Source: Atriophallophorus winterbourni
Lineage: Eukaryota; Platyhelminthes; Trematoda; Plagiorchiida; Microphallidae
Assembly: GCA_013407085.1 (NCBI GenBank)
Contig: JACCGJ010009915.1
Location: forward strand, 53,580-117,579
Reading direction: 5' to 3'
DNA: 64,000 nt
Shown here one piece after another: positions 2,206 through 63,799 of this stretch (its first letter is position 1; each line of letters starts with the position of its first letter). The translations under genes were made by a program, and so were the position numbers. Below the pieces are notes generated by a model. The model was given only the letters and a program-made list of their open reading frames with translations, was not told where the DNA came from and made no database searches.

Positions 2206-2228
2206 TCAAGACGCAATTGACTGATTAT
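2206..2228 (-). CDS. Terminal coding exon, divergent, DNQSIAS
   Basis: Acceptor cttgcatacctaag, phase 1, reading DNQSIAS then TGA. It is an older paralogue of the other terminal exons and would end a transcript using the exons at 2964, 4548 and 5859. Confidence 0.45.
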
Positions 2229-2963
2229 CTTAGGTATGCAAGACGTTTGGTGGTATCCAAGTAATCAAAAACTTCAGGTGCAAACTTAAGAACCGGGTGA
2301 CAGTTGAGCAGTAAATTTGGAGAGCTCGATCTATCTTTCCATCAATTGAAGTTAGTCGGCAATCTTTTCACCTGATAGTCAATCTTTGGGAGCTGTTTAA
2401 ACTTTATTTATTTCAATATACATACAGTGAAACGTTCATGTGATCGCAGTTTTTCGTAGCAATTTTTTCCGTTTTTTAACCATTGTAATTTCAACCAATC
2501 ACAAAAATGTTTTAGGTATTAAATAAACTATGAAAAATGCGTAATTTTCGCATGCATATGAGAATTTGAAAAAATATTATTGTGGTTCTACTGAAACGAG
2601 CAACAAGAACGCTGTAAGGCTGCAATCCACAATGCACAATTTTGTTGCAGTTTTTGAAACATTTCTGCGTCTATGCTCAACGCAAATGCATGTGAATATC
2701 AGGTTTTTCTGATTAAAAATTGTGGTAGAAATGTAGTAAGAATGTTGTACTCATTAATACACAGATATAAAATATGCACATATATATATATATTTATATA
2801 TAACAGCGGCAGATTCTATGTTGTGATTTATTTGAATAATGAAATGTTTTATTTTAGTAACGTCAACATTTTCCTGAATACAGAATTTAAATGATTTTTC
2901 TTCATATGAAACTTAAAAAATATTTATCCGTGATACGATGGATATCAATGATTGCTAACGTAC

Positions 2964-2993
2964 CTCTTCTTGATGATGGTGGAGATGTATTAG
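2964..2993 (-). CDS. 30-nt micro-exon, ANTSPPSSRR
   Basis: Acceptor cacaaaccag and donor GTACGTTAGC enclose 30 nt, phase 1, reading (A)NTSPPSSRR. It contains an N-T-S glycosylation sequon. Confidence 0.6.
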
Positions 2994-4547
2994 CTGGTTT
3001 GTGATATTTCAAATAATGAAATGTTATATGAAATGAAATATGTCTTCACTTTTATCTTTTCAAGGGTGAGAATTAATTTTTATATAATATATTAGGAAAA
3101 TTAGAATCCTCAGTACTTGCATTATTAAAGGATTTAAAGATCTTGTTCATAGTTTTCTGGATGATAATTGACATTATATCTGTTACAAATGTTTCATCAA
3201 ACGTTTCACGAAAATTTCAGCGCAGGAAAATTAATCGTATGCGATTTGTGCAGGCATGCTTAAATGCTATTATATTGCAATCGCAGGCACAGAAAATTCT
3301 AAGTATTCAATTTTGTTGGGTATAAACATCTCTGACAGCTCAATTTCTGTCGAAGTTATGCTTCTGTAAATTTGGTAAAATTAATGTTGCTTTTAATGCC
3401 TAAAATTTGAAATGACATTACGACCAAAATATTCCATTCAACTTCAAATCATCATATTTTATATTTCCAGAATACATTTCTAATTTACAAGATAGTAACT
3501 AATTTATAAAATGCAAATCAGGAGATTCGTAAACGAAGTCAATTTCAATCAGGGAGTCAAATGTTTTTAGTATCATAAAAAATGGAATTTTTATTGCACT
3601 TTAGTTGAAGAGATCAACATTTTGGATCCAACAGATGGTAGTCTGCTACGGGTAAATTGTAAGATTCTGAATAAACATGACAGTTTTTTATCAGCGCGAG
3701 ATTTGGCAGAAACTATGCAGTCTTCTCATACATAAATTACTACTGTATTAGAATTTCGAATCTGATCAATTCTTCATTTTTGCATATATACATATATGTT
3801 TATATATTTGCAATTGACACTATCTCAAAATGTGAATTTCAATTATACTCAAACAACTGGCCGTGTGCGCGTTGTGTGTTTGACGAAACAAAATGCACAA
3901 CTATATTAGGGAATTTGGTCCGGTGGTTTCAACGAGTCCACTAGTTTATGAATAAATGGGTTGAACGGGTTCGTGTTTGAACTTTATTTATTTCAATATA
4001 CATACAGTGAAACGTTCATGTGATCGCAGTTTTCCGTAGCAATTTTTTCCGTATTTTAAACATACACACTCATTGTAATTTCAACCAATCACAAAAATGT
4101 TTTAGGTGTTAAATAAACTATGAAAAATGCGTAATTTTCGCATGAATATGAGAATTTGTATAAATATTATTGTGGTTCTACTGAAACGAGCAACAAGAAC
4201 GCTGTAAGGCTGCAATCCACAATGCACAATTTTGTTGCAGTTTTTGAAACATTTTTGCGTCTATGCTCAACGCAAATGCATGTGAATATCAGGTTTTTCT
4301 GATTAAAAATTGTGGTAGAAATGTAGTAAGAATGTTGAAATCATTAATACACAGATATAAAATATGTATATATATATTTATATATAACAGCGGCAGATTC
4401 TATGTTGTGATTTATTTGAATAATGAAATGTTTTATTTTAGTAACGTCAACATTTTCCTGAATACAGAATATAAATGTTTTTTCTTCATATGAAACTTAA
4501 AAAATATTTATCAGTGATACGATGGATATCAATGATTGTTAACGTAC

Positions 4548-4577
4548 CTCTTCTTAATGATGGTGTAGATGTATGAG
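4548..4577 (-). CDS. 30-nt micro-exon, AHTSTPSLRR
   Basis: Paralogue of 2964-2993, 1,584 bp away, with the same acceptor and a GTACGTTAAC donor. It reads (A)HTSTPSLRR; three of nine residues differ while the flanks are nearly the same. Confidence 0.6.
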
Positions 4578-5858
4578 CTGGTTTGTGATATTTCAAATAA
4601 TGAAATGTTATATGAAATGAAATATGTCTTCACTTTTATCTTTTCAAGGGTGAGAATTGATTTTTATATAATATATTAGGAAAATTAGAATCCTCATTAC
4701 TTGCATTATTAAAGGATTTAAAGATCTTGTTCATAGTTTTCTGGATGATAATTGACATTATATCTGTTACAAATGTTTCATCAAACGTTTCACGAAAATT
4801 TCGGCGCAGGAAAATTAATCGTTCACGATTTTTTCAGGCATGCTTAAATGCTATTATATTGCAATCGCAGGCACAGAAAATTCTAAGTATTTAATTTTGT
4901 TGGGTATAAACATCTCTGACAGCTCAATTTCTGTCGAAGTTATGCTTCTGTAAATTTGGTAAAATTAATGTTGCTTTTAATGCCTAAAATCTGAAAAGAC
5001 ATTACGACCAAAATATTCCATTCAACTTCAAATCATCATATTTTATATTTCCAGAATATATTTCTAATTTACAAGATAGTAACTAATTTATAAAATGCAA
5101 ATCAGGAGATTCGTAAACGAAGTCAATTTCAATCAGGGAGTCAAATGTTTTTAGTATCATAAAAAATGGAATTTTTATTGCACTTTAGTTGAAGAGATCA
5201 ACATTTTGGATCCAACAGATGCTAGTCTGCTACTGGTAAATTGTAAGATTCTGAATAAACATGACAGTTTTTTATCAGCGCGAGATTTGGCAGAAACTAT
5301 GCAGTCTTCTAATACATAAATTTTTACTGCATTAGAATTTCGAATCTGATCAATTCTTTATTTTTTGCATAAATACATATATGTTTATACATTTGCAATT
5401 GACATTATCTCATATTGTGAATTTCAATTATACTCAAACAACTGGCCGTGTGCGCGTTGTGTGTTTGACGGAACAAAATGCACAACTATATTAGGGAATT
5501 TGGTCCGGTGGTTTCAACGAGTCCACTAGTTTATGAATAAATGGGTTGAACAGGTTCGTAGTAACAAAAGTATCCGAAACTGGAGTTTATTCTCAAACGT
5601 TGTTTATTAATTCTAATAGTAATGCCAACGTCAGTTGATTGTGCACAGCACAGATCCAGCTGTGCAGTTTAGTTGTTGACCTTCATATTCGGTCGAAATG
5701 GACCGCTTCGACTTTCAAAACTCTTATTAAATTCTTTTTTTGTAAGTGATTAACATTGCTGCATCATTGTTGTATAATATTTGAATATTGTAAATATTTT
5801 TTGAAATTCCAGAATAATTATTAATAATACGTTAGTATAAACCTTATCGATAACGCAC

Positions 5859-5876
5859 CTCCAGGTATTGGTGGAG
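5859..5876 (-). CDS. 18-nt micro-exon, APPIPG
   Basis: Acceptor aaccactacag and donor GTGCGTTATCG bound 18 nt reading (A)PPIPG. First of seven members of a proline-rich exon family. Confidence 0.6.
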
Positions 5877-7711: not shown

Positions 7712-10403
7712 CTGAGGTATGCAAGAATTTTTATGGTATCTAGGTAATAAATATCTGGTTTCCGTGAAGCAGAAAATTTGGACAGGTCACAAAATAATCG
7801 TCGAGGGACATTCAATCTTATGCTATTTATTCATACAAAATGACTTAACTCGCTTTCCAGTTGAATTCCAGATATTGTTCATTCGGACGAAACGATTTTA
7901 CAACTAATACGCTCATTTTACTTATGATTCAAGAATAACCATCATAGGTACCACAGGTTTTACAATTATCTGCGATGCTATAGATTCTCTTGTTGAAACA
8001 TTTAATTAGAATATTAATGGAGCTCTATTCCATCCGTCAAATTAGGTTTACGTTAATAAACTTTGGTGGTCGGAATAGCTGACAATTTATTCAAATATAT
8101 CACTAACCACTGAAACGGTTTGACGAAACATTTGCGTGTTTTCTTCAAATGCTCTCTGGAAATCGTGACTTATCGAATATGTTTACCTAAGCGAATTAAT
8201 TTTGTTCATTGAGATACATTTCTAGTCAATCTTCTGTGAATATCGTAAAAAGAAATTCGCTTATGTCAACATATGCGAGATACATTTTGTGTACGTTAGA
8301 TTATTTCTATCAACATACCGGTTCTTGGCGCAGCATTTCCTGCAAATAAGTTGAGAGAATGTAATTTTTGAAGTGTTTAGCACCGCTGAACATCACTCTA
8401 AATCTTGCATGTTATAAAGTCAGAGATGATGTATGATGTGATCCCATGAAAATAAAATTGTTTACTTTATCAAACATATTGTGATTAATGACATTCGACG
8501 TTCCTGACAGAACATTATTTTGAAATTCGCACAAAACGGAAAAATGTTTGTCATTCGACTAAATTCAACCATTCTTTCCAAATTTGGTATAAACCCAAAA
8601 ATTAAATATTTCGACAAATGTATGTCATTCGCCAATTTGGTTTGATTTCGCTCCTGATTTATTTTTTTGCGCTGCTCTGATAAAAAATAACATTTATTTC
8701 ATTAATTACATTTCATTCTCAATTACTACACGATTCAATCAATGTTCAATGCAATTAATCACTCATTTTCCTTGTTGAATGATCAGCTGAAATTTAGGAG
8801 AAGTTTTTGATTTGAAAATTATTTTGCTTGAACAAAATTAAGGATGTTTCCTGATTGATTGCACTCATCTGTTTGAGAAAGGCATAACTTGGAAGATGAT
8901 ATCAGTATGAGATCTGAGTAATACCTATATATTTATATATATATATATATATATTTATTTATATATATATATATATGCATTAATCCTAAATAAAAGTTTT
9001 TGTTTATAATTTTTCGGATAACAAATAACTTTATATTCTTTTCAAATGTTTCATCAAAACGTTTCACGAAATGTTCCACGCGGTTTATTTAATCATAACC
9101 GATTTGTTGTAATCATGAATAAAATGTTCTTGTTCATAATGTTCCGGATGACAAATTTGTGCTGAAACCAAGAAAACATATTTGATAGTGATACGTGGAA
9201 AAAATCCATGATAACGCACCGGGAGGTTGTGTTGGAGCTGTAGCTGTTGGTGTATGAATATTGTAATGTAATAATAATAATATATATATATATATGCATT
9301 ATTCTTAAATTAAAACTTCTTGTTCATAATGTTTCAGATGATAATTGATTTTATACCCAAAATAATGTGTTGCTCACATCCCCATCCCTTACACACCACT
9401 ACCGGTTTCTGACTGTTTGCCGTCGTCAGGTGGAGACAGTGAGATCAGCTTCAGTGAGCCTTGAAACAGTGGATTAATGGTAAACAAGGTTATACTTGTA
9501 TGCCAACAGTTATATAGGGTTCGTACAACGAAGCACGAAGTTGAGGCACGGAATCACAAAGTGATACTTGGCCAAATTAAATGTTCTCGTTCATAATTAT
9601 TCGGATTACAATTAACTTAATACCCGTTTTAAATGTCTCATCAAAATGTTAGTGCTACGTAGGATAAAAATCCATGATAACGCCTCAACAGTATTCGGTT
9701 GAGCTGTAGCTGTTAGTGTATAAATATTGTAATGTAATAATATATATATATATAATATAATATATATATATATATATATACTAATATCTATATATATATA
9801 TATATGCAATAATCATAAAAAATTAAACGTTTTGTTTATAATTTTTCGGATACACAAATTAATTTATATTTCGTTTCAAATGTTTCATCAACCACAGGAG
9901 CTCAAGTTGAGCTCTGTGCTGTAGCGTTGGGTATGATATGTATGTAATAATTATATTGATATATGCATTATTCTTAATTAAAAACTTCTTGTTCATTATT
10001 TCAAAAATGAATAATCGATTTTATACCCAAAAAATGTGTTGCTACATCCCCATCCCTTACACACCACTACCGGTTTCTGACTGTTTGCCGTCGTCAGGTG
10101 GAGACAGTGAGATCAGTTTCAGTGAGCCTTGAAACAGTGTATTAATGGTAAACAATGTTATACGTGTATGCCAACAGTTATATAGGGTTCGTACAACGAA
10201 CCACGAAGTTCAGACACGGAATCACAAAGTGATACTTGGTCAAATTAAATGTTCTTGTTCATAATTTTTCGGATTACAATTAAATTTATACCGGTTTTAA
10301 ATGTCTCATCAAAATGTTAGTGCTACGTAGTATAAAAATCCATGATAACGCACCGACAGGATTCGGTTGAGCTGTAGCTGTTGGTGTATAAATATTGTAA
10401 TGT

Positions 10404-10456
<53 letters not shown>

Positions 10457-13400
10457 ATAATCAAAAATTAAAAGTTTTTGTTTATAATTTTTCGGATAAT
10501 AAATAATTTTATGTTCGTTTCAAATATTTCATCAAAACGTTTCACGAAATATTTCACGCGGTACATTTAATCTCAACCGATTTGTTTAGACAGGCTGGAA
10601 TATTAATATATTGCAGTCGCTGCAAATTCATCTGGGATTTCTTGATCGGATATTCTACTGAATTCACAACGCAACCTGAAAGATACTTTGTTAAATCATT
10701 TTTAGGATTTCAGTTTTGATTGTTATACGAAACTCTTAAAGCTCAATTTGTCGCGAATTGTTTTCACTAAAATTGTTATGAATAATGTTGATTTTAATGC
10801 TTAAAATCTTCAAACAATACGAGCTAAATTATTCTATTTAATTTCAAATCATCACATATTATTTTTTCAAATATAAAACTAATTTAAACAATGGAAACAA
10901 CTTCACAAAAAAAGCAAATTATGACAAGCGTAAATGAAATCATTTTCGATTGAGGTTATATATATATATATCTTTGTGTTTCACTGTGTCGTTTGTTGTG
11001 AATCTGACGTAGCTGACTCATCACTGTCTGTCCTATAATCTTTACGCGTCTAGTGTTGATTAGACATAATGACTTAACTCGCTATGAGCTATATTCTATC
11101 CGTTAAATTAGGTTCACGTTATTAAATTTTGGTGGTCGGAATAGCTGACAATTTATTCAAATATATCACTAACCACTGAAACGGTTTGTCGAAACATTTG
11201 CGTGTTTTCTTCAAATGCTCTCTGGAAATCGTGACTTATCGAATATATTCACCTAAGCGAATTAATTTTGTTCATTGAGATACATTTCTAGTCAATCTTC
11301 TGTGAATATCGTAAAAAGAAATTCGCTTATGTCAACATATGCGAGATACATTTTGTGTACGTTAGCTTATTTCAATCAACATACCGGTTCCTTGCGCAGG
11401 TTGTCCTGCAAATAAGTTGAGAGAATGTAATTTTTGAAGTGTTTAGCACCGCTGAACATCACTCTAAATCTTGCATGTTATAAAGTCAGAGAAGATGTAT
11501 GATGTGATCCCATGAAAATAAAATTGTTTACTTTATCAAACATATTGTGATTAATGACATTCGACGTTCCTGACAGAACATTATTTTGAAATTCGCACAA
11601 AACGGAAAAATGTTTGTCATTCGACGAAATTCAAACATTCTTTTCAAATTTGGTATAAACCCACAAATTAAATATTTCGACAAATGTATATCATTCGCCA
11701 ATTTGGTTTGATTTCGCTCCTGATTTATTTTTTTGCGCTGCTCTGATAATAAATAACATTTTTTCATTAATTCCATTTCATTCTGAATTACTACACGATT
11801 CAATTAATGTTCAATTCATTTATTCATTCATTTTCCTTGTTGAAAGATCAGCTAAAATTTAGAAGTTTTTGATTTGAAAATTATTTTGCTTGAACAAAAT
11901 AAAGGCTGTTTCCTGACTGATTGCACTCATCTGTTTGAGGAAGCATGATATCATGTATTGATCTCTGATTTTATACATTTACGCGTTTCAAGGAGCCTAA
12001 TCAAACGTTTGCAAACTAATGATATGAAATATCCTGAAAACACTCGCGATGTGTGTGATGAAAATGCATGCGAATGCGGATCTTTTTTCATTAACTTTGG
12101 CTTAGCCTCACATTTTTGTAAGTATTCAAGTGATATAAAATTTTTGATCGTGTGGACGTTATACAACGAAGACTAAATCGTTCAAGAGCTTCGGTGTTTT
12201 CCGTATTTTCAGGGCGGTCAACCACTCGATGCTAAAAACGATAATATTGTAGAGAATCGCAAGCTAAATTCATAAAATGACACAAATGTTTATTTATATT
12301 TAACTATTAAATTGTTGATAGACCTTGCCAAATATGCTTCGACACATTTGCCTTTCAATTATTGTTTTAATGATATTAAATTTCTTGTGTTAAGAAAATA
12401 CATCGCTTGAGTGTATACTACTGAGCGCGTTGATATACCAAGAACCTAGTAGAACACCCGACCATTCAAATGGTTTGAGCAATCCACATTCCCGATTGGA
12501 TATCCCCCGTAGAGATTTGTTTGTGAATCATTGTTAAACTTGGAACGCATTACTTGATTAAATCATGCACTTGGGACTGGCTATTGTATTTACATGGTAA
12601 TTCAGCGAATGCATTAACTACCATACGCTATGAGCCTGTCAAATTTGAGTCTTGTAATGGTATATTTTTTGACTCAATATAACTCGTTCTCGTAAGCATT
12701 TTGTTAGGAGTAATGGTTTTCTACCATAGAAAGTTTAAGTTCTGTAGTTCGTGTAGCTACATTTTCAGGTGCATCAGCGGTACAAATATACGCACTTATA
12801 TTTAAAACCTCCTTGTCTGCATCAATGTATCTTGGCCTTTAAGGATATGCATTCTCTAACAAAACATTTTAATGATTATCAATCCACACACAAGCAGAAA
12901 TTATATAGATGAAAAAACACTTTTCTTGATTTTCAAATCATTTAGGATTGAGCGATTGAATTTTTGTATACGACATTTGTTTCACGTGAGTTCAATGAAA
13001 GAGAGTTCACGGGCATTAATGAGATAATAAGGAAATAAAATTTCCACGAGTAAAAGATAATAATAATAAAATTAATATTATTAATAATAATATATACTTT
13101 TCCATTGAAAAATCCCGGTCTCATCAGAAATTAAGTAATCAAAGCTTAACCACGTGTTTTACTTAAAATAATGCTCCTCATTCTGGCTGTGTTAGTGAGA
13201 AATTCTCATTGTTCCTTTATTTCTCAATATTCCCTTAATTCGCTCCAATCTGTGGGATTCAGAACCTGGTATCTTAGACAAATGTGCTAAGAGTCAACTT
13301 TTCTCTGATGCTTAAAAATGCTAAACATATTAAAAACTAAACATATTTTGCCGTTTTGTAATCAGTTTCGTAAAATTCTTCGTGGTATAGGTTTCCTGTT

Positions 13401-13656
13401 TCCATTTATTTCAGGAAATTATCTCCAAGAGACGTTTTGGTTGCCACCACCGTGTTAGCGCATAACTCATGGAACGTAAATGTAAAAAATTTCCGAGACC
13501 AAAGGAGATAATTTGAAGGCTGCTGAAAACCTCTAATCGCAATTCTCTGAAAATTGTTTCGTATATTTTACCACATGATCCACGCTCGAGTGACACAGAA
13601 CAAATTGTCAAGAAGACAATTAACACCGATTTATAAAAAGGTTGCAGGGGTTGCAT
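7659..13656 (-). CDS. MEG-like micro-exon gene model, copy 1 (most complete)
   Basis: Minus-strand model joining 13572-13656 (signal peptide), 13163-13186, 11385-11405, 10354-10377, 9220-9243, 8319-8339, 7952-7969 and 7659-7711. The lengths 85+24+21+24+24+21+18+53 sum to 270 nt, 90 codons with the stop, and every junction is phase 1. The predicted product is a small secreted protein of about 89 residues: a 28-residue leader, short Ala/Pro/Gln/Thr-rich segments, and a tail beginning DDQSVINEK. This matches the family pattern of schistosome MEGs (signal peptide, symmetric micro-exons, longer end exons). Function is unknown; secretion is inferred from the leader only. Exon choice in the real transcript may differ, since MEGs are heavily alternatively spliced. 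The joins are inferred from splice motifs, not from transcripts. Confidence 0.55.
7952..7969 (-). CDS. 18-nt micro-exon, DNCKTC
   Basis: Acceptor atagcatcgcag and donor GTACCTATG bound 18 nt, phase 1, reading (D)NCKTC: a pair of cysteines next to an otherwise Cys-poor product. It sits between the 21-nt exon and the terminal exon. Confidence 0.42.
8052..8078 (-). other. Candidate 27-nt exon with in-frame stop
   Basis: Acceptor aaattgtcag and donor GTAAACC bound 27 nt. In phase 1 it reads AIPTTKVY and then TAA. If spliced in, it would end the protein early as an alternative terminus. Copies near 11118-11144, 20538, 29278, 32575, 47820 and 58825 also carry a stop in this phase. Confidence 0.25.
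8319..8339 (-). CDS. 21-nt micro-exon, GNAAPRT
   Basis: Acceptor cttatttgcag and donor GTATGTTG enclose exactly 21 nt, phase 1, reading (G)NAAPRT. It is the most divergent member of a seven-copy exon family whose flanking introns are nearly identical. Confidence 0.6.
8926..8978. repeat. TA microsatellite
   Basis: Alternating TA with short TTTAT interruptions inside a MEG intron. Confidence 0.85.
9220..9243 (-). CDS. 24-nt micro-exon, ATAPTQPP
   Basis: Acceptor acaccaacag and donor GTGCGTTATC enclose 24 nt reading (A)TAPTQPP in phase 1. The Thr/Pro composition would suit O-glycosylation (inference). Confidence 0.6.
9366..9580 (-). repeat. Dispersed SINE-like repeat, one unit with hammerhead
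   Basis: Reverse-strand copy of the 240-bp unit, from gtgttgctcacatcc to cacaaagtgatacttgg. Confidence 0.6.
9396..9433 (-). ncRNA. Type I hammerhead ribozyme-like motif
   Basis: Sense strand: stem I CCAC, core CTGACGA, stem II GGC-AAACA-GTC (one G-U pair), core GAAA, minimal stem III CCGG, cleavage-type UA, then GTGG closing stem I. All conserved core positions are present. The tiny stem III resembles the hammerheads of the schistosome Sm-alpha repeat and Penelope-like elements (family knowledge). A C-A mismatch at the base of stem II weakens it. Confidence 0.5.
9686..9709 (-). pseudogene. Decayed 24-nt micro-exon
   Basis: Clearly homologous to 10354-10377 (TAQPNTV-like reading) with a good acceptor. 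The donor GTGCG has become GAGGCG, and a GC donor there would leave a non-multiple-of-three exon. Confidence 0.5.
9737..9807. repeat. TA microsatellite
   Basis: Interrupted TA tract just upstream (sense) of a decayed 24-nt exon. Confidence 0.85.
10036..10240 (-). repeat. Dispersed SINE-like repeat, one unit with hammerhead
   Basis: Second reverse-strand unit, 668 bp from the first, with the same flanking intron and neighbouring micro-exon. Confidence 0.6.
10064..10101 (-). ncRNA. Type I hammerhead ribozyme-like motif
   Basis: Same complete core and stem I CCAC/GTGG pairing as 9396-9433. Confidence 0.5.
10354..10377 (-). CDS. 24-nt micro-exon, ATAQPNPV
   Basis: Same splice motifs as 9220-9243; reads (A)TAQPNPV. 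The upstream (sense) intron carries a TA microsatellite next to the acceptor, as in the other members. Confidence 0.6.
10408..10454. repeat. TA microsatellite
   Basis: Uninterrupted TA tract just upstream (sense) of the exon at 10354-10377. Confidence 0.85.
11385..11405 (-). CDS. 21-nt micro-exon, GQPAQGT
   Basis: Same acceptor and donor as 8319-8339, reading (G)QPAQGT. In gene copy 1 this and the 8319 exon would both be present, giving two diverged versions of the same module in one transcript. Confidence 0.6.
11958..12124 (+). other. Plus-strand Cys-rich ORF segment with splice donor
   Basis: An open frame contains YPENTRDVCDENACECGS and then FFINFGLASHF, ending at a strong donor GTAAGTA at 12118. 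Copies at about 21.4, 30.2, 33.5, 48.7 and 59.7 kb keep the frame and the GTAAGT. Most differences between copies are synonymous in this frame, apart from one Glu-to-Lys. No family recognised. It could be a stray exon of an unrelated gene inside the MEG intron, or chance. Confidence 0.2.
13163..13186 (-). CDS. 24-nt micro-exon, (A)RMRSIIL type
   Basis: Acceptor ctaacacag and donor GTAAAACA bound 24 nt that read RMRSIIL in phase 1 after the split Ala codon. It is the first plausible exon downstream of the signal-peptide exon. The donor is modest and the residues are unlike the Pro/Gln exons, so it is less certain. Confidence 0.35.
13572..13656 (-). CDS. Signal-peptide first exon, copy 1
   Basis: An ATG preceded immediately by an in-frame TAA opens 28 codons. 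The peptide starts MQPLQPFYKS, continues with a hydrophobic core VLIVFLTIC, and ends near SLERGSC: a classic secretory leader. The exon ends TGT G, followed by donor GTAAAATATA, so it closes in phase 1, exactly the phase needed by all the micro-exons downstream. The reading frame stays open beyond the donor for 81 codons in total, but that extension is intronic if the donor is used. Confidence 0.6.
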
Positions 13657-13969: not shown

Positions 13970-13975
13970 CTGGAA
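13970..13975 (-). CDS. 6-nt micro-exon, VP
   Basis: Acceptor gaataaactccag and a strong donor GTACGTTTG leave six bases, TTCCAG, phase 1, adding (V)P. At homologous sites elsewhere (near 5570, 25190, 37220, 40860) the donor is GATACT and the exon is dead. Exons this small are known in schistosome MEGs. Confidence 0.35.
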
Positions 13976-14244: not shown

Positions 14245-14271
14245 TCAATGACACAACTGCAGGTCCTTCAT
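14245..14271 (-). CDS. 27-nt micro-exon, DEGPAVVSL
   Basis: Acceptor aaccactacag and donor GTACGTTTG enclose 27 nt reading (D)EGPAVVSL in phase 1. It is longer than the 18-nt family but shares its acceptor, so it probably derives from the same module. Confidence 0.5.
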   Translation of the reverse strand: MKDLQLCH

Positions 14272-20169: not shown

Positions 20170-23071
20170 CTGAGGTATGCAAGAATTTTTATAGTATCTA
20201 GGTAATAAATATCTGCTCGCGCATACGTAAATATCTGGTTTCCGTGAAGCAGAAAATTTGGACAGGTCACAAAATAATCGGCGAGGGACATTTAATCTTA
20301 TGCCATTTATTCATACAAAATGACTTAACTCGCTTTCCAGTTGAATTCCAGATATTGTTCATTCGGACTAAACGATTTTACAAGTAATACGCTCATTTTA
20401 CTTATGATTCAAGAATAACCATCATAGGTACCACAGGTTTTACAATTATCTGCGATGCTATAGATTCTCTTGTTGAAACATTTAATTAGAATATCAATGG
20501 TGCTATATTCTATCCGTTAAATTAGGTTCACGTTATTAAATTTTGATGGTCGGAATAGCTGACAATTTATTCAAATATATCACTAACCACTGAAACGGTT
20601 TGCCGAAACATTTGCGTGTTTTTTTCAAATGCTCTCTGGAAATCGTGACTTATCGAATATATTCACCTAAGCGAATTAATTTTGTTCATTGAGATACATT
20701 TCTAGTCAATCTTCTGTGAATATCGTAAAAAGAAATTCGCTTATGTCAACATATGCGAGATACATTTTGTGTACGTTAGATTATTTCAATCAACTTACCG
20801 GTTTGTTGCGCAGCTTGACATGCAAATAAGTTGAGAGAATGTAATTTTTAATGTGTTTAGCACCGCTGAACATCACTCTAAATCTTGCATGTTATAAAGT
20901 CAGAGATGATGTATGATGTGATCCCATGAAAATAAAATTGTTTACTTTATCAAACATATTGTGATTAATGACATTCGACGTTCCTGACAGAACATTATTT
21001 TGAAATTCGCACAAAACGGAAAAATGTTTGCCATTCGACTAAATTCAAACATTCTTCCCAAATTTGGTATCAACCCACAAATTAAATATTTCGACAAATG
21101 TATGTCATTCGCCAATTTGGTTTGATTTCGCTCCTGATTTATTTTTTGGCGCTGCTCTGATAATAAATAACATTTTTTCATTAATTCCATTTCATTCTTA
21201 ATTACTACACGATTCAATTAATGTTCAATTCATTTATTCATTCATTTTCCTTGTTGAAAGATCAGCTAAAATTTAGAAGTTTTTGATTTGAAAATTATTT
21301 TGCTTGAACAAAATAAAGGCTGTTTCCTGACTGATTGCACTCATCTGTTTGAGGAAGCATGATATCATGTATTGATCTCTGATTTTATACGTTTACGCGT
21401 TTCAAGGAGCCTAATCAAACGTTTGCAAACTAATGATATGAAATATCCTGAAAACACTCGCGATGTGTGTGATGAAAATGCATGCGAATGCGGATCTTTT
21501 TTCATTAACTTTGGCTTAGCCTCACATTTTTGTAAGTAATCAAGTGATATAAAATGTTTGATCGTGTGGACGTTATACAACGAAGACTAAATCGTTCAAG
21601 AGCTTCGGTGTTTTCCGTATTTTCAGGGCGGTCAACCACTCGATGCTAAAAACGATAATATTGTAGAGAATCGCAATCTAAATTCATAAAATGACACAAA
21701 TGTTTATTTATATTTAACTATTAAATTGTTGATAGACCTTGCCAAATATGCTTCGACACATTTGCCTTTCAATTATTGTTTTAATGATATTAAATTTCTT
21801 GTGTTAAGATAATACATCGCTTGAGTGTATACTACTGAGCGCGTTGATATACCAAGAACCTAGTAGAACACACGACCATTCAAATGGTTTGAGCAATCCA
21901 CATTCCCGATTGGATATCCCCCGTAGAGATTTGTTTGTGAATCATTGTTAAACTTGGAACGCATAACTTGATTAAATCATGCACTTGGGACTAGCTATTG
22001 TATTTACATGGTAATTCAGCGAATGCATTAACTACCATACGTTATGAGCCTGTCAAATTTGAGTCTTGTAATGGCATATTTTTTTGACTCAATATAACTC
22101 GTTCTCGTAAGCATTTTGTTAGGAGTAATGGTTTTCTACCATAGAAAGTTTAAGTTCTGTAGTTCGTGTAGCTACATTTTCAGGTGCATCAGCGGTACAA
22201 ATATACGCACTTATATTTAAAACCTCCTTGTCTGCATCAATGTATCTTGGCCTTTAAGGATATGCATTCTCTAACAAAACATTTTAATGATTATCAATCC
22301 ACACACAAGCAGAAATTATATAGATGAAAAAACACTTTTCTTGATTTTCAAATCATTTAGGATTGAGCGATTGAATTTTTGTATACGACATTTGTTTCAC
22401 GTGAGTTCAATGAAAGAGAGTTCACGGGCATTAATGAGATAATAAGGAAATAAAATTTCCACGAGTAAAAGATAATAATAATAAAATTAATATTATTAAT
22501 AATAATATATACTTTTCCATTGAAAAATCCCGGTCTCATCAGAAATTAAGTAATCAAAGCTTAACCACGTGTTTTACTTAAAATAATGCTCCTCATTCTG
22601 GCTGTGTTAGTGAGAAATTCTCATTGTTCCTTTATTTCTCAATATTCCCTTAATTCGCTCCAATCTGTGGGATTCAGAACCTGGTATCTTAGACAAATGT
22701 GCTAAGAGTCAACTTTTCTCTGATGCTTAAAAATGCTAAACATATTAAAAACTAAACATATTTTGCCGTTTTGTAATCAGTTTCGTAAAATTCTTCGTGG
22801 TATAGGTTTCCTGTTTCCATTTATTTCAGGAAATTATCTCCAAGAGACGTTTTGGTTGCCACCACCGTGTTAGCGCATAACTCATGGAACGTAAATGTAA
22901 AAAATTTCCGAGACCAAAGGAGATAATTTGAAGGCTGCTGAAAACCTCTAATCGCAATTCTCTGAAAATTGTTTCGTATATTTTACCACATGATCCACGC
23001 TCGAGTGACACAGAACAAATTGTCAAGAAGACAATTAACACCGATTTATAAAAAGGTTGCAGGGGTTGCAT
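20117..23071 (-). CDS. MEG-like micro-exon gene model, copy 2
   Basis: Model: 22987-23071, 22578-22601, 20799-20813 (cryptic acceptor), 20432-20449 and 20117-20169, total 195 nt with the stop. It has the same signal-peptide exon as copy 1 and a tail starting DNQSVINEK. The 21-nt exon has lost its acceptor AG (AT on the sense strand), but an AG six bases further in would give a 15-nt in-frame exon. The copy is therefore either slightly shortened or skips that exon. It lacks the two 24-nt Thr/Ala/Pro exons of copy 1. Confidence 0.45.
20432..20449 (-). CDS. 18-nt micro-exon, DNCKTC
   Basis: Copy of 7952-7969 with unchanged splice sites and peptide. Confidence 0.4.
20799..20813 (-). CDS. 15-nt micro-exon with shifted acceptor, AAQQT
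   Basis: The expected acceptor ttgcag is ttgcat here. The next AG (gtcaag) leaves 15 nt that keep the frame, reading (A)AQQT, with an improved donor GTAAGTTG. Alternatively the exon is skipped. Confidence 0.35.
22578..22601 (-). CDS. 24-nt micro-exon, (A)RMRSIIL type
   Basis: Duplicate of 13163-13186 with the same splice sites, in gene copy 2. Confidence 0.33.
22987..23071 (-). CDS. Signal-peptide first exon, copy 2
   Basis: Identical in sequence to the exon at 13572-13656, including the phase-1 donor. It lies 9,415 bp from it inside a near-identical block, so it is a recent duplication. Confidence 0.55.
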
Positions 23072-23384: not shown

Positions 23385-23390
23385 CTGGAA
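23385..23390 (-). CDS. 6-nt micro-exon, VP
   Basis: Copy of 13970-13975 with the same acceptor and donor. Confidence 0.33.
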
Positions 23391-23659: not shown

Positions 23660-23686
23660 TCAATGACACAACTGCAGGTCCTTCAT
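23660..23686 (-). CDS. 27-nt micro-exon, DEGPAVVSL
   Basis: Copy of 14245-14271, unchanged. Confidence 0.48.
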   Translation of the reverse strand: MKDLQLCH

Positions 23687-25479: not shown

Positions 25480-25497
25480 CTCGAGATCTTGGTGGAG
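25480..25497 (-). CDS. 18-nt micro-exon, APPRSR
   Basis: Same family; acceptor ccactatag, donor GTGCGTTATCG; reads (A)PPRSR. Confidence 0.55.
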
Positions 25498-26452: not shown

Positions 26453-26476
26453 CAACAGGTTTTGGTTGAGCTTTAG
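26453..26476 (-). pseudogene. Decayed 24-nt micro-exon, AKAQPKPV
   Basis: Acceptor ccaacag intact, reading (A)KAQPKPV, but the donor GT is GA (GAGCAATATC), so splicing is unlikely. Confidence 0.5.
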
Positions 26477-26641: not shown

Positions 26642-26653
26642 GGATAGGTGGTG
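26642..26653 (-). CDS. 12-nt micro-exon, APPI
   Basis: Donor GTGCGTTATC and acceptor acattccag define a 12-nt phase-1 exon reading (A)PPI. It looks like a shortened member of the 24-nt Thr/Ala family whose 5' part was deleted. Confidence 0.35.
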
Positions 26654-29537: not shown

Positions 29538-29558
29538 TGGTTCCTTGCGCAGCTTGTC
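29538..29558 (-). CDS. 21-nt micro-exon, GQAAQGT
   Basis: Canonical acceptor and GTATGTTG donor. The last exon base is A instead of G, which changes the split codon at the next junction. Confidence 0.5.
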
Positions 29559-35416: not shown

Positions 35417-35422
35417 CTGGAA
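35417..35422 (-). CDS. 6-nt micro-exon, VP
   Basis: Copy of 13970-13975 with the same acceptor and donor. Confidence 0.33.
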
Positions 35423-35691: not shown

Positions 35692-35718
35692 TCAATGACA
35701 CAACTGCAGGTCCTTCAT
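35692..35718 (-). CDS. 27-nt micro-exon, DEGPAVVSL
   Basis: Copy of 14245-14271, unchanged. Confidence 0.48.
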   Translation of the reverse strand: MKDLQLCH

Positions 35719-37511: not shown

Positions 37512-37529
37512 CTCGAGATCTTGGTGGAG
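37512..37529 (-). CDS. 18-nt micro-exon, APPRSR
   Basis: Duplicate of 25480-25497 at an offset of 12,032 bp. Confidence 0.55.
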
Positions 37530-38486: not shown

Positions 38487-38510
38487 CAACAGGTTTTGGT
38501 TGAGCTTTAG
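38487..38510 (-). pseudogene. Decayed 24-nt micro-exon, AKAQPKPV
   Basis: Duplicate of 26453-26476 with the same lost donor. Confidence 0.5.
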
Positions 38511-38673: not shown

Positions 38674-38685
38674 GGATAGGTGGTG
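38674..38685 (-). CDS. 12-nt micro-exon, APPI
   Basis: Copy of 26642-26653 in the duplicated block. Confidence 0.35.
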
Positions 38686-40024: not shown

Positions 40025-42020
40025 ATGGGGATGTGAGCAACACATTAATTTGACATTATATTTACTACAAATGTTTCATAAAACGTTTCACGAAAATTTC
40101 GGCGCAGGAAAATTAATCGTTTGCGATTTGTGCAGGCATGCTTAAATGTTGTTATATTGCAATCGCGGCAAAAGAAAATTCTAAGTATTCAATTTTGATA
40201 GGTATAAACAGCTCAATTTCTGTCGAAGTTATGCTTCTGTAAAATTGGTAAAATTAATGTTGCTTTTATTGCCTTAAATCTGAAAAGACATTACGACCAA
40301 AATATTCCATTCAACTTAAAATCATCATATTTTATATTTCCAGAATATATTTCTAATTTACAAGATAGTAACTAATTTATAAAATGCAAATCAGGAGATG
40401 CGTAAACGAAATCATTTTCAATCAGGGAGTCAAATGTTTTTAGTATCATAAAAATGGACTTTTTATTGCACTTTATTTGAAGAGATCAACATTTTGGAAT
40501 ATAACAGATGCTAGTCTGCTACGGGTAAATTGTATGATTCTGAATAAACATGACAGTTTTTATCAGCGCGAGATTTGGCAGAAACTATGCAGTCTTCTCA
40601 TACATAAATTATTACCGTATTAGAATTTCGAATCTGATCAATTCTTCATTTTTGCATATATACATATATGTTTATATATTTGCAATTGACACTATCTCAA
40701 AATGTGAATTTCAATTATACTCAAACAACTGGCCGTGTGCGCGTTGTGTGTTTGACGGAACAAAATGCACAACTATATTAGGGAATTTGGTCCGGTGGTT
40801 TCAACGAGTCCACTAGTTTATGAATAAATAGGTTGAACAGGTTCGTAGTAACAAAAGTATCCGAAACTGGAGTTTATTCTCAAACGTTGTTTAATAATTC
40901 TAATAGTAATTCCAACGCCAGTTGATTGTGCACAGCACAGATCCAGCTGTGCAGTTTAGATGTTGACCTTCTTCTTCGGTCGGACCGCTTCGACTTTCAA
41001 AACTCTTATTAAATTGTTTTTTCTTGTAAGTGATTAACATTGCTGCATCATTGTTGTATAATATTTGAATATTCTAAATATTTTTTGAAATTCTAGAATA
41101 ATTAATAATATTACGTTAGTATAAACCTTATCGATAACGCACCTCGAGATCTTGGTGGAGCTATAGTGGTTTGTCAAAGAAAATCACCGTTGAAATAAGG
41201 TGGGTTTGCACAATTGTGTTTCTATTTTTTGAAACATTTCTGCGTCTATGCTTAACGCAAATGCATGTGAAAGTCACGTTTTGCTGATAAACGATTTTCT
41301 GATTCAAATTGTGTTACTAATGTAGTAAGAACTTTGTAATCATTATATACACCGATATGAAAATATGCATATATATAACAGCGGCAGATTCTATGTTGTG
41401 ATTATTTAAATAATGAAATGTTTTATTATGTCATTCTCGTCGTTACGTTTATCTTTTTATTGGTAAGATGTAAATTTTGTGGAAAATTAATGTTAAAATT
41501 TGGAATTCTCATTGCATTATTATTAAACTCAAAGTTCTTCTTTATAATTTTTAGGATGATAATTGACTTCTTATTGGTTTCAAATGTTTCATCAAAACGT
41601 TTCACGAAATATTCCACGCGGTACATTTAATCTTAACCAATTTGTTTAGACAGGCTGGAATATTAATATATTGCAGTCGCTGCAAATTCATGTGGGATTT
41701 CTTGATCGGATATTCTGCTGAATTCACAACGCAACCTGAAAGATATATTGTTAAACAAATCATTTTTAGGATTTCAGTTTTGATTGATATACGAAACTCT
41801 GAAAGCTCAATTTCTCGCGAATTGTTTTCACTAAAATTGTTATGAATAATGTTGATTTTAATGCTTAAAATCTTCAAACAATACGAGCTAAATTATTCTA
41901 TTTAATTTCAAATCATCACATATTATTTTTTTCAAATATAAAACTAATTTAAACAATGGAAACAACTTTACAAAAAAAGCAAATTATGACAAGCGTAAAT
42001 GAAATCATTTTCGATTGAGG
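40025..42020. repeat. Duplicate of 36,400-38,390 (offset about 3,625-3,631 bp)
   Basis: Contains the APPRSR exon. The unique stretch 39,490-39,960 separates the two. Confidence 0.7.
41143..41160 (-). CDS. 18-nt micro-exon, APPRSR
   Basis: A further copy of the same exon, 3,631 bp above 37512-37529, in a shorter duplicated block. Confidence 0.55.
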
Positions 42021-42115: not shown

Positions 42116-42139
42116 CAACAGGTTTTGGTTGAGCTTTAG
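42116..42139 (-). pseudogene. Decayed 24-nt micro-exon, AKAQPKPV
   Basis: Third copy of 26453-26476 with the same lost donor; 166 bp from the intact exon at 42305. Confidence 0.5.
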
Positions 42140-42304: not shown

Positions 42305-42328
42305 GGAGAGGTCGTTCTTGAGCGGTAG
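42305..42328 (-). CDS. 24-nt micro-exon, ATAQERPL
   Basis: Acceptor acaccaacag, donor GTGCGTTATC, reading (A)TAQERPL. The final base is C rather than G, so the following split codon changes. Confidence 0.5.
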
Positions 42329-44102: not shown

Positions 44103-44120
44103 CTGGAGGTCTTGATGGAG
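44103..44120 (-). CDS. 18-nt micro-exon, APSRPP
   Basis: Acceptor aaccactacag, donor GTGCGTTATCG; reads (A)PSRPP, a distinct variant. Confidence 0.58.
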
Positions 44121-46624: not shown

Positions 46625-46651
46625 CAACAACAGGTTTTGGTTGAGCTTTAG
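46625..46651 (-). CDS. 27-nt micro-exon with possible GC donor, AKAQPKPVV
   Basis: Acceptor caccaatag. The usual GT donor is changed to TT, but three bases on a GC donor (GCTTATC) would give a 27-nt in-frame exon reading (A)KAQPKPVV. It is either a GC-AG intron or a dead exon. Confidence 0.3.
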
Positions 46652-48079: not shown

Positions 48080-48100
48080 CGGTTTGTTGCGCAGATTGTC
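48080..48100 (-). CDS. 21-nt micro-exon, GQSAQQT
   Basis: Canonical splice sites, reading (G)QSAQQT. It lies upstream of the terminal exon at 47378-47472. The matching signal-peptide exon is absent because the sequence switches to LINE-A at about 49,402. Confidence 0.5.
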
Positions 48101-53462: not shown

Positions 53463-53492
53463 CTCTTCTTGATGATGGTGGAGATGTATTAG
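53463..53492 (-). CDS. 30-nt micro-exon, ANTSPPSSRR
   Basis: Identical to 2964-2993, in the block offset 50,499 bp. Confidence 0.58.
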
Positions 53493-54769: not shown

Positions 54770-54787
54770 CTCGTCCTCTTGGTGAAT
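54770..54787 (-). CDS. 18-nt micro-exon, DSPRGR
   Basis: Acceptor aaccactacag, donor GTGCGCTATCG; reads (D)SPRGR. Confidence 0.55.
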
Positions 54788-57630: not shown

Positions 57631-57657
57631 CAACAACAGGTTTTGGTTGAGCTTTAG
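57631..57657 (-). CDS. 27-nt micro-exon with possible GC donor, AKAQPKPVV
   Basis: Copy of 46625-46651 in the block offset 11,006 bp; same GC-donor uncertainty. Confidence 0.3.
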
Positions 57658-58478: not shown

Positions 58479-61373
58479 CTGAGGTATGCAAGAATTTTTA
58501 TGGTATCTAGGTAATAAATATCTGGTTTCCGTGAAGCAGAAAATTTGGACAGGTCACAAAATAATCGGCGAGAGACATTTAATCTTATGCCATTTATTCA
58601 TACAAAATGACTTAACTCGCTTTCCAGTTGAATTCCAGATATTGTCCATTCGGACGAAACGATTTTACAACTAATACGCTCATTTTACTTATGATTCAAT
58701 AATAACCATCATAGGTACCACAGGTTTTACAATTATCTGCGATGCTATAGATTCTCTTGTTGAAACATTTAATTAGAATATTAATGGAGCTATATTCTAT
58801 CCGTTAAAATAGGTTCACGTTATTAAATTTTGGTGGTCGGAATAGCTGACAATTTATTCAAATATATCACAAACCACTGAAACGGTTTGTCGAAACATTT
58901 GCGTGTTTTCTTCAAATGCTCTCTGGAAATCGTGACTTATCGAATATATTCACCTAAGCGAATTAATTTTGTTCATTGAGATACATTTCTAGTCAATCTT
59001 CTGTGAATATCGTAAAAAGAAATTCGCTTATGTCAACATATGCGAGATACATTTTGTGTACGTTAGATTATTTCAATCAACATACCGGTTTGTTGCGCAT
59101 CTTGTCCTGCAAATAAGTTGAGAGAATGTAATTTTTGATGTGTTTAGCACCGCTGAACATCACTCTAAATCTTGCATGTTATAAAGTCAGAGATGATGTA
59201 TGATGTGATCCCATGAAAATAAAATTGTTTACTTTATCAAACATATTGTGATTAATGACATTCGACGTTCCTGACAGAACATTATTTTGAAATTCGCACA
59301 AAACGGAAAAATGTTTGCCATTCGACTAAATTCAAACATTCTTTCCAAATTTGGTATAAACCCACAAATTAAATATTTCGACAAATGTATGTCATTCGCC
59401 AATTTGGTTTGATTTCGCTCCTGATTTATTTTTTTGCGCTGCTCTGATAAAAAATAACATTTTTTCATTAATTACATTTCATTCCTAATTACTACACGAT
59501 TCAATTAATGTTCAATTCAATTATTCATTCATTTTCCTTGTTGAAAGATCAGCTAAAATTTAGGAGAAGTTTTTGTTTTGAAAATTATTTTGCTTGAACA
59601 AAATTAAGGATGTTTCCTGACTGATTGCACTCATCTGTTTGAGGAAGCATGATCGGAAGCATGATATCATGTATTGATCTCTGATTTTATACCTTTACGC
59701 GTTTCGAGGAGCCTAATCAAACGTTTGCAAACTAATGATATGAAATATCCCGAAAACACTCGCGATGTGTGTGATGAAAATGCATGCAAATGCGGATCAT
59801 TTTTCATTAACTTTGGCTTAGCCTCACATTTTTGTAAGTAATCAAGTGATATAAAATTTTTGATCGTGTGGACGTTATACAACGAAGACTAAATCGTTCA
59901 AGAGCTTTGGTGTTTTCCGTATTTTCAGGGCGGTCAACCACTCGATGCTAAAAACGATAATATTGTAGAGAATCGCAATCTAAATTCATAAAATGACACA
60001 AATGTTTATTTATATTTAACTATTAAATTGTTGATAGACCTTGCCAAATATGCTTCGACACATTTGCCTTTCAATTATTGTTTTAATGATATTAAATTTC
60101 TTGTGTTAAGATAATACATCGCTTGAGTGTATACTACTGAGCGCGTTGATATACCAAGAACCTAGTAGAACACACGACCATTCAAATGGTTTGAGCAATC
60201 CACATTCCCGATTGGATATCCCCCGTAGAGATTTGTTTGTGAATCATTGTTAAACTTGGAACGCATAACTTGATTAAATCATGCACTTGGGACTAGCTAT
60301 TGTATTTACATGGTAATTCAGCGAATGCATTAACTACCATACGTTATGAGCCTGTCAAATTTGAGTCTTGTAATGGCATATTTTTTTGACTCAATATAAC
60401 TCGTTCTCGTAAGCATTTTGTTAGGAGTAATGGTTTTCTACCATAGAAAGTTTAAGTTCTGTAGTTCGTGTAGCTACATTTTCAGGTGCATCAGCGGTAC
60501 AAATATACGCACTTATATTTAAAACCTCCTTGTCTGCATCAATGTATCTTGGCCTTTAAGGATATGCATTCTCTAACAAAACATTTTAATGATTATCAAT
60601 CCACACACAAGCAGAAATTATATAGATGAAAAAACACTTTTCTTGATTTTCAAATCATTTAGGATTGAGCGATTGAATTTTTGTATACGACATTTGTTTC
60701 ACGTGAGTTCAATGAAAGAGAGTTCACGGGCATTAATGAGATAATAAGGAAATAAAATTTCCACGAGTAAAAGATAATAATAATAAAATTAATATTATTA
60801 ATAATAATATATACTTTTCCATTGAAAAATCCCGGTCTCATCAGAAATTAAGTAATCAAAGCTTAACCACGTGTTTTACTTAAAATAATGCTCCTCATTC
60901 TGGCTGTGTTAGTGAGAAATTCTCATTGTTCCTTTATTTCTCAATATTCCCTTAATTCGCTCCAATCTGTGGGATTCAGAACCTGGTATCTTAGACAAAT
61001 GTGCTAAGAGTCAACTTTTCTCTGATGCTTAAAAATGCTAAACATATTAAAAACTAAACATATTTTGCCGTTTTGTAATCAGTTTCGTAAAATTCTTCGT
61101 GGTATAGGTTTCCTGTTTCCATTTATTTCAGGAAATTATCTCCAAGAGACGTTTTGGTTGCCACCACCGTGTTAGCGCATAACTCATGGAACGTAAATGT
61201 AAAAAATTTCCGAGACCAAAGGAGATAATTTGAAGGCTGCTGAAAACCTCTAATCGCAATTCTCTGAAAATTGTTTCGTATATTTTACCACATGATCCAC
61301 GCTCGAGTGACACAGAACAAATTGTCAAGAAGACAATTAACACCGATTTATAAAAAGGTTGCAGGGGTTGCAT
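58384..61373 (-). CDS. MEG-like micro-exon gene model, copy 4
   Basis: Model: 61289-61373, 60880-60903, 59096-59116, 58719-58736 and 58384-58478. The lengths 85+24+21+18+95 sum to 243 nt, an 80-residue protein plus stop. The terminal exon has a six-T run where copy 1 has five on the plus strand. This shifts the frame and replaces the short tail by a longer Ser/Thr/Tyr-containing tail ending in YYCK. All splice sites used are canonical GT-AG. The product would be small and secreted; function not recognised. Confidence 0.5.
58719..58736 (-). CDS. 18-nt micro-exon, DNCKTC
   Basis: Copy of 7952-7969 in gene copy 4. Confidence 0.38.
59096..59116 (-). CDS. 21-nt micro-exon, GQDAQQT
   Basis: Canonical splice sites, reading (G/R)QDAQQT. 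The first residue depends on which exon is spliced before it. Part of gene copy 4. Confidence 0.55.
60880..60903 (-). CDS. 24-nt micro-exon, (A)RMRSIIL type
   Basis: Duplicate of 13163-13186 with the same splice sites, in gene copy 4. Confidence 0.33.
61289..61373 (-). CDS. Signal-peptide first exon, copy 4
   Basis: Same leader and donor as the first copy, in the block offset 26,270 bp from copy 3. Confidence 0.55.
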
Positions 61374-61686: not shown

Positions 61687-61692
61687 CTGGAA
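61687..61692 (-). CDS. 6-nt micro-exon, VP
   Basis: Copy of 13970-13975 with the same acceptor and donor. Confidence 0.33.
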
Positions 61693-61961
61693 CTGGAGTT
61701 TATTCGCAAACGTTGTTTAAAAATTCTAATATTAATGCCCAAGCAAGTTGAGTGTGCACATCGCAGATCCAGCTGTGGATTGTAGTTGTTGACCTAATCC
61801 TTCGGTCGAAGTCGACCGCTTCGACGTTTAAAACGCTTATAAAATTCGTGTATCCTTTAAGTGATTAACATTGCTACATCATTGTTGTATTATATTTGAA
61901 TATTCTGAAAAAAACATGTAACCCCAAAATAACTATTAATAATACATTATTACAAACGTAC

Positions 61962-61988
61962 TCAATGACACAACTGCAGGTCCTTCAT
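61962..61988 (-). CDS. 27-nt micro-exon, DEGPAVVSL
   Basis: Copy of 14245-14271, unchanged. Confidence 0.48.
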   Translation of the reverse strand: MKDLQLCH

Positions 61989-62282
61989 CTGTAGTGGTTA
62001 GTTTAAGAAAATCGCTGTTGAACTGAGGTGGATAAGCACAATAATAATGCTAATTTTTGAAACATTTTTGCGTCTGTGCCTAATGTAAATGCATGTGAAT
62101 ATGGTTTGTGAAAATTTTCACAATAATGAAATGATATAATAATTCGATTTCGTTGATTTTTTCAATTAATTTAGATATTTAGAAACGTCAGTATTTGCAC
62201 AAACAAAAGATTCAATGCATGCTGTCATGAAAAACATTCATTAGTGTCTGTAGTATAAAAATAATTGCTAAAGAATCTCTAC

Positions 62283-62303
62283 GTGATGATTGAGCTGTAG
62301 ATG
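62283..62303 (-). CDS. 21-nt micro-exon with relocated donor, ASTAQSS
   Basis: Copy of 14855-14875. Confidence 0.32.
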
Positions 62304-63781
62304 CTGTTTGTGATTTTTCTAAATGAGAAATGTTAGATTAAGTCAAAGTCCTCTTGAGGTTTATCTTATTACCGGTGAAATACAAATTTTGAAGGTAATT
62401 AATTATAAATGCTTCTAAAAATAATACTTGATATTTAGCGTTTTTTCGCAAATGTCAATTGCGTAATGATCCTTGAATGTTTTGACATATTTTATGATTG
62501 CATTTCAAATATAACTTCGAAAATGCTTTTATTTCCAACATAAAGTTGAATAAAAAAGGTGCACATTTTTTAGCACCGAATAATCCATGTATGTAATTGC
62601 AGCAGTAATCTTGTTCAGCTGTCTCCACCTGTGACGGCAAACAGCCAGAAACCGGTAGTGGTGTGAAAGGGATGGGGATGTGAGCAACACATTAATTTGA
62701 CATTATATTTACTACAAATGTTTCATAAAACGTTTCACGAAAATTTCGGCGCAGGAAAATTAATCGTTTGCGATTTGTGCAGGCATGCTTAAATGTTGTT
62801 ATATTGCAATCGCGGCAAAAGAAAATTCTAAGTATTCAATTTTGATAGGTATAAACAGCTCAATTTCTGTCGAAGTTATGCTTCTGTAAAATTGGTAAAA
62901 TTAATGTTGCTTTTATTGCCTTAAATCTGAAAAGACATTACGACCAAAATATTCCATTCAACTTAAAATCATCATATTTTATATTTCCAGAATATATTTC
63001 TAATTTACAAGATAGTAACTAATTTATAAAATGCAAATCAGGAGATGCGTAAACGAAATCATTTTCAATCAGGGAGTCAAATGTTTTTAGTATCATAAAA
63101 ATGGACTTTTTATTGCACTTTATTTGAAGAGATCAACATTTTGGAATATAACAGATGCTAGTCTGCTACGGGTAAATTGTATGATTCTGAATAAACATGA
63201 CAGTTTTTATCAGCGCGAGATTTGGCAGAAACTATGCAGTCTTCTCATACATAAATTATTACCGTATTAGAATTTCGAATCTGATCAATTCTTCATTTTT
63301 GCATATATACATATATGTTTATATATTTGCAATTGACACTATCTCAAAATGTGAATTTCAATTATACTGTGTGCGCGTTGTGTGTTTGACGAAACAAAAT
63401 GCACAACTATATTAGGGAATTTGGTCCGGTGGTTTTAACGAGTCCACTAGTTTATGAATAAATGGGTTGAACAGGTTCGTAGTAACAAAAGTATCCGAAA
63501 CTGGAGTTTATTCTCAAACATTGTTTAATAATTTTAATAGTAATGCCAACGCCAGTTGATTGTGCACAGCACAGATCCAGCTGTGCAGTTTAGTTGTTGA
63601 CCTTCTTCTTCGGTCGAACTGGACCGCTTCGACTTTCAAAACTCTTATTAAATTGTTTTTTCTTGTAATTGATTAACATTGCTGCATCATTGTAGTATAA
63701 TATTTGAATATTCTAAATATTTTTTGAAAGTCTAGAATAATTAATAATATTACGTTAGTATAAACCTTATCGATAACGCAC

Positions 63782-63799
63782 CTCTAGGTCTTGGTGGAG
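63782..63799 (-). CDS. 18-nt micro-exon, APPRPR
   Basis: Acceptor aaccactacag, donor GTGCGTTATCG; reads (A)PPRPR. Last supported exon before the window end. Confidence 0.57.

Follow-up and report, generated by a model that had tools for sequence, protein, structure and literature searches.

A probable tandem array of MEG-like micro-exons in the trematode Atriophallophorus winterbourni

We analysed a 64-kb stretch of DNA from the trematode Atriophallophorus winterbourni (the window), which forms the end of a contig of 117,579 bases (C6437) in an assembly of 537 Mb and 15,840 contigs. Its minus strand carries short intervals bounded by AG acceptors and GT donors, three families of which, F1, F1b and F2, are well supported by their substitution pattern as coding micro-exons. 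The window thus probably lies within a minus-strand array of genes resembling the micro-exon genes (MEGs) of schistosomes, duplicated in tandem and with exons under diversifying selection. Excerpts of PMC10526429, PMC4015677 and PMC4350168 describe MEGs as having very short, symmetric exons, mostly multiples of three in length, long introns, clusters formed by duplication and mobile elements nearby. A preliminary description of the window had proposed a tandemly expanded MEG family. Our results on selection and phase support the symmetric micro-exons, the tandem expansion and a MEG-like anatomy, and a MEG-like function of the array is likely, while its membership of the MEG class is unproven.

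Alignments of paralogous copies revealed short islands of excess substitution, each lying between an AG and a GT of the minus strand. The F1, F1b and F2 exons (18, 12-24 and 21 nt, respectively) change 4 to 12 times faster than their flanks. For F2, 9 of the 21 columns enclosed by TTATTTGCAG and GTATGTTGAT are variable, compared with 65 of 833 elsewhere in the unit (p=2e-5); for the six intact copies the figures are 8 exon columns against 60 elsewhere (p=1e-4). In F1, where ACCACTACAG and GTGCGTTATC flank the 18-nt exon, 9 of 18 columns are variable compared with 53 of 497 (p=6e-5), counted over 7 of the 11 aligned rows after exclusion of four 27-nt rows. Windows of exon length attain the variability of the exon in 7 of 834 cases for F2 and in 4 of 498 for F1. 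When only the four copies of a 3.3-kb unit are compared, 5 variable columns remain among the 21 of F2 (p=2e-4). The mean pairwise difference, computed over 13 sequences per family and with flanks partly fixed by the search pattern, reaches 0.30 for the exon of F1 (upstream flank 0.04, downstream flank 0.18) and 0.21 for that of F2 (0.02 and 0.04).

Observed and expected substitution were also compared for all YAG..GTRNGT intervals of 6-45 nt having paralogues on either strand. The three highest ratios all belong to minus-strand families whose length is a multiple of three, namely F2 (5.14), F1b (4.13) and F1 (4.03), and the best of the 15 plus-strand families reaches 2.44. The corresponding flanks give ratios of 0.43 for F2 (6 intervals), 0.80 for F1b (4 intervals) and 0.95 for F1 (6 intervals).

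The one common phase put forward in the preliminary description was recovered. Phase 1, in which the first codon base lies in the preceding exon, contains no stop in any of 25 distinct exons from the window and other contigs (11 F1, 4 F1b and 10 F2), compared with one exon that has a stop in phase 0 and three in phase 2; this list leaves aside the 24-nt and 12-nt F1b exons, copies with lost sites and exons found later by profile search. Read in phase 1, the changes comprise 6.8 synonymous and 48.2 nonsynonymous ones (P=0.004, with 29% synonymous expected; the neutral expectation is 29-31%), and read in phase 2 they comprise 16 and 41. For F1 and F2 together, 4 of 13 third positions are variable in phase 1 (1/6 in F1, 3/7 in F2), as against 22 of 26 first and second positions (Fisher p=0.003). 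The open frame and the codon-position pattern therefore indicate one frame. Amino-acid-changing substitution is thus raised in the phase-1 exons, a trait shared with MEGs, for which excerpts of PMC4350168, PMC10526429, PMC4015677, PMC5825161 and PMC4671649 report high ratios of nonsynonymous to synonymous substitution in the mature part, clustering and transposon enrichment. As predicted, the exons are also symmetric in phase 1 and hence skippable in frame, again as in MEGs.

Copies on other contigs were collected with patterns defined by the flanks alone, which allowed 3-45 nt in between and were run on the window and on loci L009-L026. These patterns returned only lengths that are multiples of three: 15 places for F1 (10 distinct exons, all of 18 nt), 15 for F2 (10 distinct, all of 21 nt), 4 for F1b, 4 for F3 and 24 for a general pattern. 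The putative internal exons are thereby very short (12-30 nt) and divisible by three, like those of MEGs. At divergent loci, which share 73-77% identity and were counted whether or not their sites are intact, the F1 acceptor AG, donor, 18-nt length and phase are kept in 5 of 5 places (L009, L010, L011, L012 and L028); the exons there encode ELPLR with a GTGAGT donor (L009), SLPHP (L010 and L012) and SQPPR with GTAAGT (L011), and L028 has a CTAG acceptor. F2 keeps its length, sites and phase in 3 of 6 divergent places, which are three identical copies at L013 encoding NAKQEI. Profile searches gave 40 matches for F1, 22 for F2 and 48 for F1b, which overlap and in several cases have no AG..GT; the exons matched measure 12, 18, 21, 24 or 27 nt, with a few of 6, 10 or 15 nt that were cut at an internal AG or GT. 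Families differ in exon length by multiples of three, as would be expected if the frame matters.

Among the observations in this and the next two paragraphs, several weigh against an array of MEG-like genes. The preliminary description had counted about 50 AG..GT micro-intervals on the minus strand over 2206..63799. Short intervals divisible by three do exist there, and we catalogued 33 intact ones, of 6, 12, 18, 21, 24, 27 or 30 nt and none of the reported 15 nt; the highest ends at 63799, and no interval is found at 2206. The window is pieced together from tandem segmental duplications whose copies are 75-99.5% identical, so that only a handful of distinct units underlie the roughly 50 intervals. 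The recurring donor strings were confirmed, with GTGCGTTATC present 11 times on the minus strand and never on the plus strand, GTATGTTG 6 times and never, and GTACGTT 11 times on the minus but 9 times on the plus strand; the restriction of the first two to one strand results from copying. The excess density that had been claimed was not found: a strict scan, requiring pyrimidine-rich acceptors and GTRNGT donors, gave 37 intervals on the minus strand, 14 of them divisible by three, and 40 on the plus strand, 31 of them divisible by three, and five dinucleotide shuffles gave 22-40 intervals with 7-18 divisible by three. A looser scan of intervals with paralogues, collapsed by family, left 15 families on each strand, with 10 of 15 divisible by three on each. 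Minus-strand counts therefore exceed neither the plus strand nor shuffled sequence, the comparison that the description itself had named as a refutation, and the density argument fails.

The divergence statistics have their own weaknesses. All p-values are optimistic because the copies are related by descent and are not independent. Reducing F1 to five rows weakens its excess (5/18 against 40/497, p=0.015), and in the 3.3-kb copies 83 of 3411 windows attain the value of the F2 exon, the top 15 of them in a poorly aligned edge. Phase 0 shows part of the synonymous deficit as well (11 synonymous and 48 nonsynonymous changes, P=0.05). Coding support for F3 is weak: its ratio of 1.85 (flank 0.31) lies below those of two minus-strand intervals not divisible by three (2.18 and 1.95) and is equalled by a plus-strand interval (1.89, flank 0.25). 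Splice sites are also lost. In the window, one F2 copy has no usable acceptor (20799..20819, minus strand, as for all exons below) and five F1b copies encoding QPKPV have lost their donor (57634..57651, 46628..46645, 42116..42133, 38487..38504 and 26453..26470), and at the divergent F2 places the donor is lost in 3 of 6 (twice at L014 and once at L015). Judging from these F2 and F1b copies, part of the array is dead. The number of decayed copies cannot be read from the flank-only patterns, since these demand intact sites.

The ends of the genes are elusive. A signal-peptide first exon had been part of the preliminary description, and none was convincingly found in the window or at the loci on other contigs. 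An unproven candidate, beginning MQPLQPFYKSVLIVFLTICSVS and ending in phase 1 at GTAAAA, has four identical copies in the window (61289..61373, 35019..35103, 22987..23071 and 13572..13656) and is also present at L020 and L025, but its donor is absent from the L010 homologue. The scan for such exons gave 7 candidate rows on the minus strand (the GTAAAA type and 3 others) and 4 on the plus strand. We tentatively rejected an open reading frame starting MNKNILFMITAYIYILL (46727 and 57733), both copies of which have lost the donor, the other window copies containing stops; its copy at L020 (near 7203) is open, ends at a phase-1 GTGCGT and is the only intact one with a donor, and no hydrophobic start was seen at the homologous places of L010 and L011. 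The hydrophobic frame MEKYILLL (13105 and three more) was likewise set aside, no good phase-1 donor being seen. A candidate terminal exon at 13788-13843, with AATAAA nearby, proved to be a decayed F1-type unit (profile E values: window, 0.02 and 0.014; L011, 0.0003). The last exon was not found in the window search, in which redundant terminal-exon candidates were about equally common on both strands (138 minus, 112 plus). A provisional spliced model of 88 residues, built with this rejected terminal piece and the unproven F4, F5, F6 and signal-peptide pieces, had no homologue and no Pfam match, the query being partly wrong and the database seemingly poor in flatworms.

These observations have to be set against other explanations. 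The window might consist of non-coding tandem repeats with chance AG..GT intervals, divergence peaks arising from patchy gene conversion. Such repeats would account for the absence of any excess of raw intervals over the plus strand or shuffles, for the splice sites lost in several window copies and at three of the six divergent F2 loci, and for the divergence peaks that our whole-window scan found away from any exon, some of them among the highest-ranked. They would not lead us to expect that the top three interval families are all divisible by three and open in phase 1, that these show a codon-position pattern and a synonymous deficit, or that F1 keeps its sites in 5 of 5 divergent places; we consider this explanation quite improbable. 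Slightly more credible, yet still unlikely, is a locus of the polymorphic-mucin type, SmPoMuc, in which repeats of about 1 kb each carry one small exon, introns are homogenised by conversion, exons are selected and repeats are combined. In Schistosoma mansoni, according to excerpts of PMC2576457, the ~1-kb repeats contain a 27-bp exon 2, an intron more than 94% identical, microsatellites in between and selected exon differences. The tandem units of the window, their near-identical introns as opposed to differing exons and the (TA)n tracts beside F1b exons all recall this organization, so that SmPoMuc resembles the array about as closely as MEGs do. However, the window has several exon families and lengths instead of one 27-bp exon, the supported exons being of 12-24 nt (30 nt for F3); a length of 27 nt, that of the nonapeptide exon, occurs only in the F5 candidate. 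The peptides are mostly rich in Pro, Gln and Arg and only partly in Ser and Thr, the tandem-repeat scan of the window showed no GA microsatellite, and Rfam at its gathering threshold detected no hammerhead ribozyme in the window. Diversifying substitutions within an exon family also distinguish the array from SmPoMuc.

The array might instead belong to a micro-exon effector family from a different lineage. The bicycle genes of aphids, for example, share the many micro-exons and the rapid evolution, and of the two organism-named matches of one reverse-transcriptase fragment of the window, one is to an aphid. The fluke Paragonimus westermani is nevertheless the closer named match of this fragment (47%, the aphid Uroleucon reaching 36%). 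Bicycle genes, described in excerpts of the literature as putative effectors with internal exons of phase 2, belong to another phylum, whereas the exons here are of phase 1, and such an origin seems very remote. Compared with schistosome MEGs, to which the array is likened through their published descriptions, the shared features are short symmetric exons divisible by three, a duplication cluster, mobile elements and raised amino-acid-changing substitution. What sets the array apart is that single exon-bearing segments have multiplied and that the excess of change shows up in individual exons, their flanks being conserved. For Antigen 10-3 (MEG-4), a schistosome gene containing tandem repeats, the title of a work cited in PMC4015677 names tandemly repeated exons with repeats of 81 bases, longer than any exon here.

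The 33 intact intervals include 18 with independent coding evidence (F1 7, F1b 5, F2 6), the three weak ones of F3 and 12 of F4, F5 and F6 with none. The F1 micro-exons, all of 18 nt, encode PPRPR in phase 1 (63782..63799), SPRGR with donor GTGCGC (54770..54787), PSRPP (44103..44120), PPRSR (41143..41160, 37512..37529 and 25480..25497) and PPIPG (5859..5876). The unit near 54.8k (54700-54900) looks mosaic, and gene conversion is suggested there since the sequence preceding its exon agrees with the copy of the 14k type. F1b comprises two 18-nt exons, QPNPV (10354..10371) and PTQPP (9220..9237), each becoming 24 nt with an upstream AG, a 24-nt exon TAQERPL (42305..42328) and two 12-nt exons PPI (38674..38685 and 26642..26653). 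Within the F1b-bearing units lie (TA)n tracts (10408-10453, 9719-9805 and 46494-46544), whose length varies between copies. The 21-nt F2 exons encode QDAQQT (59086..59106), QSAQQT (48080..48100), QAAQGT (32831..32851, and 29538..29558 with A as last base), QPAQGT (11385..11405) and NAAPRT (8319..8339). The 30-nt F3 exons, with weaker support, would encode NTSPPSSRR (53463..53492 and 2964..2993) and HTSTPSLRR (4548..4577).

F4, F5 and F6 are candidates with four identical copies each. F5 (27 nt, EGPAVVSL; 61962..61988, 35692..35718, 23660..23686 and 14245..14271) is a homologue of F1 with its donor 9 nt further on. F4 (6 nt; 61687..61692, 35417..35422, 23385..23390 and 13970..13975) and F6 (21 nt, KEVLNI; 60513..60533, 34243..34263, 22211..22231 and 12796..12816) are weak candidates.

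The G+C content across the window is 29-38% in 2-kb steps. Its duplications include a 6.9-kb unit present twice at 99.5% identity (20040-26946 and 32074-38978) and the 3.3-kb unit, whose four window copies are 98-99% identical. Beside the F2 exon of this unit, all four window copies of a ~1.7-kb stretch (12671-14362, with counterparts near 22k, 34k and 60k) are identical while the DNA on either side varies, a pattern suggestive of conversion or duplication in the very recent past. Two sites (6444-7018 and 44690-45263) carry a tandem repeat with a period of 240 bp and 2.4 copies. On contig C11505, a second tandem array (L010, L027, L028 and L009) carries Ser/Thr-rich micro-exons in repeated order (HQPTG, TAETSST, SLPHP).

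Decayed reverse-transcriptase fragments, apparently from two types of element, lie on the plus strand inside the duplicated array (49479-50386, 16739-17203 and 27007-27906). One of the two fragments tested matches PF00078 (E=2.6e-8). One fragment has two organism-named matches among 14, those to P. westermani and Uroleucon given above; the other, with 24 matches, is led by one labelled Streptococcus dysgalactiae (E=1.6e-6), followed by the tapeworm Schistocephalus solidus (E=3.1e-5, 34%). A PDB search with a reverse-transcriptase fragment gave no match, nor did the Rfam (gathering threshold) and tRNA scans of the window. Duplicated units with mobile-element fragments nearby correspond, at the level of units, to the clustering by duplication described for MEGs.

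Segments of ~1-7 kb, several of them with one symmetric phase-1 micro-exon in a conserved intronic frame, have been duplicated repeatedly in tandem. We propose that each micro-exon contributes ~4-8 residues, mostly rich in Pro, Gln and Arg and in some cases in Ser and Thr, and that the frame would stay intact whether an exon is retained, skipped or lost. Splice sites and the nearby intron would be held or homogenised, while selection would alter the residues that the exons encode and thereby make the array's products diverge. We infer splicing of the exons into mRNA, secretion of the products, and selection exerted by the immune system of a host or by another exposed partner. A more specific possibility, which we advance tentatively and regard as doubtful, is a cassette repertoire: tens of near-identical units with interchangeable phase-1 micro-exons would yield variable secreted proteins by exon choice, with selection confining diversification to exons of 12-30 nt and conversion homogenising the splicing frame, an arrangement intermediate between MEGs and polymorphic mucins. 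A literature search at the level of titles found none naming such an array in a fitting species.

Automatic annotation traces micro-exon genes poorly, as an excerpt of PMC10526429 states. AG/GT-bounded islands of excess divergence between paralogues may offer a route to such genes without RNA. If the exons are spliced, the array would constitute a natural experiment in which the same intronic frame is present many times and mainly the micro-exon diverges, which would allow neutral change to be told apart from selection acting on a few residues.

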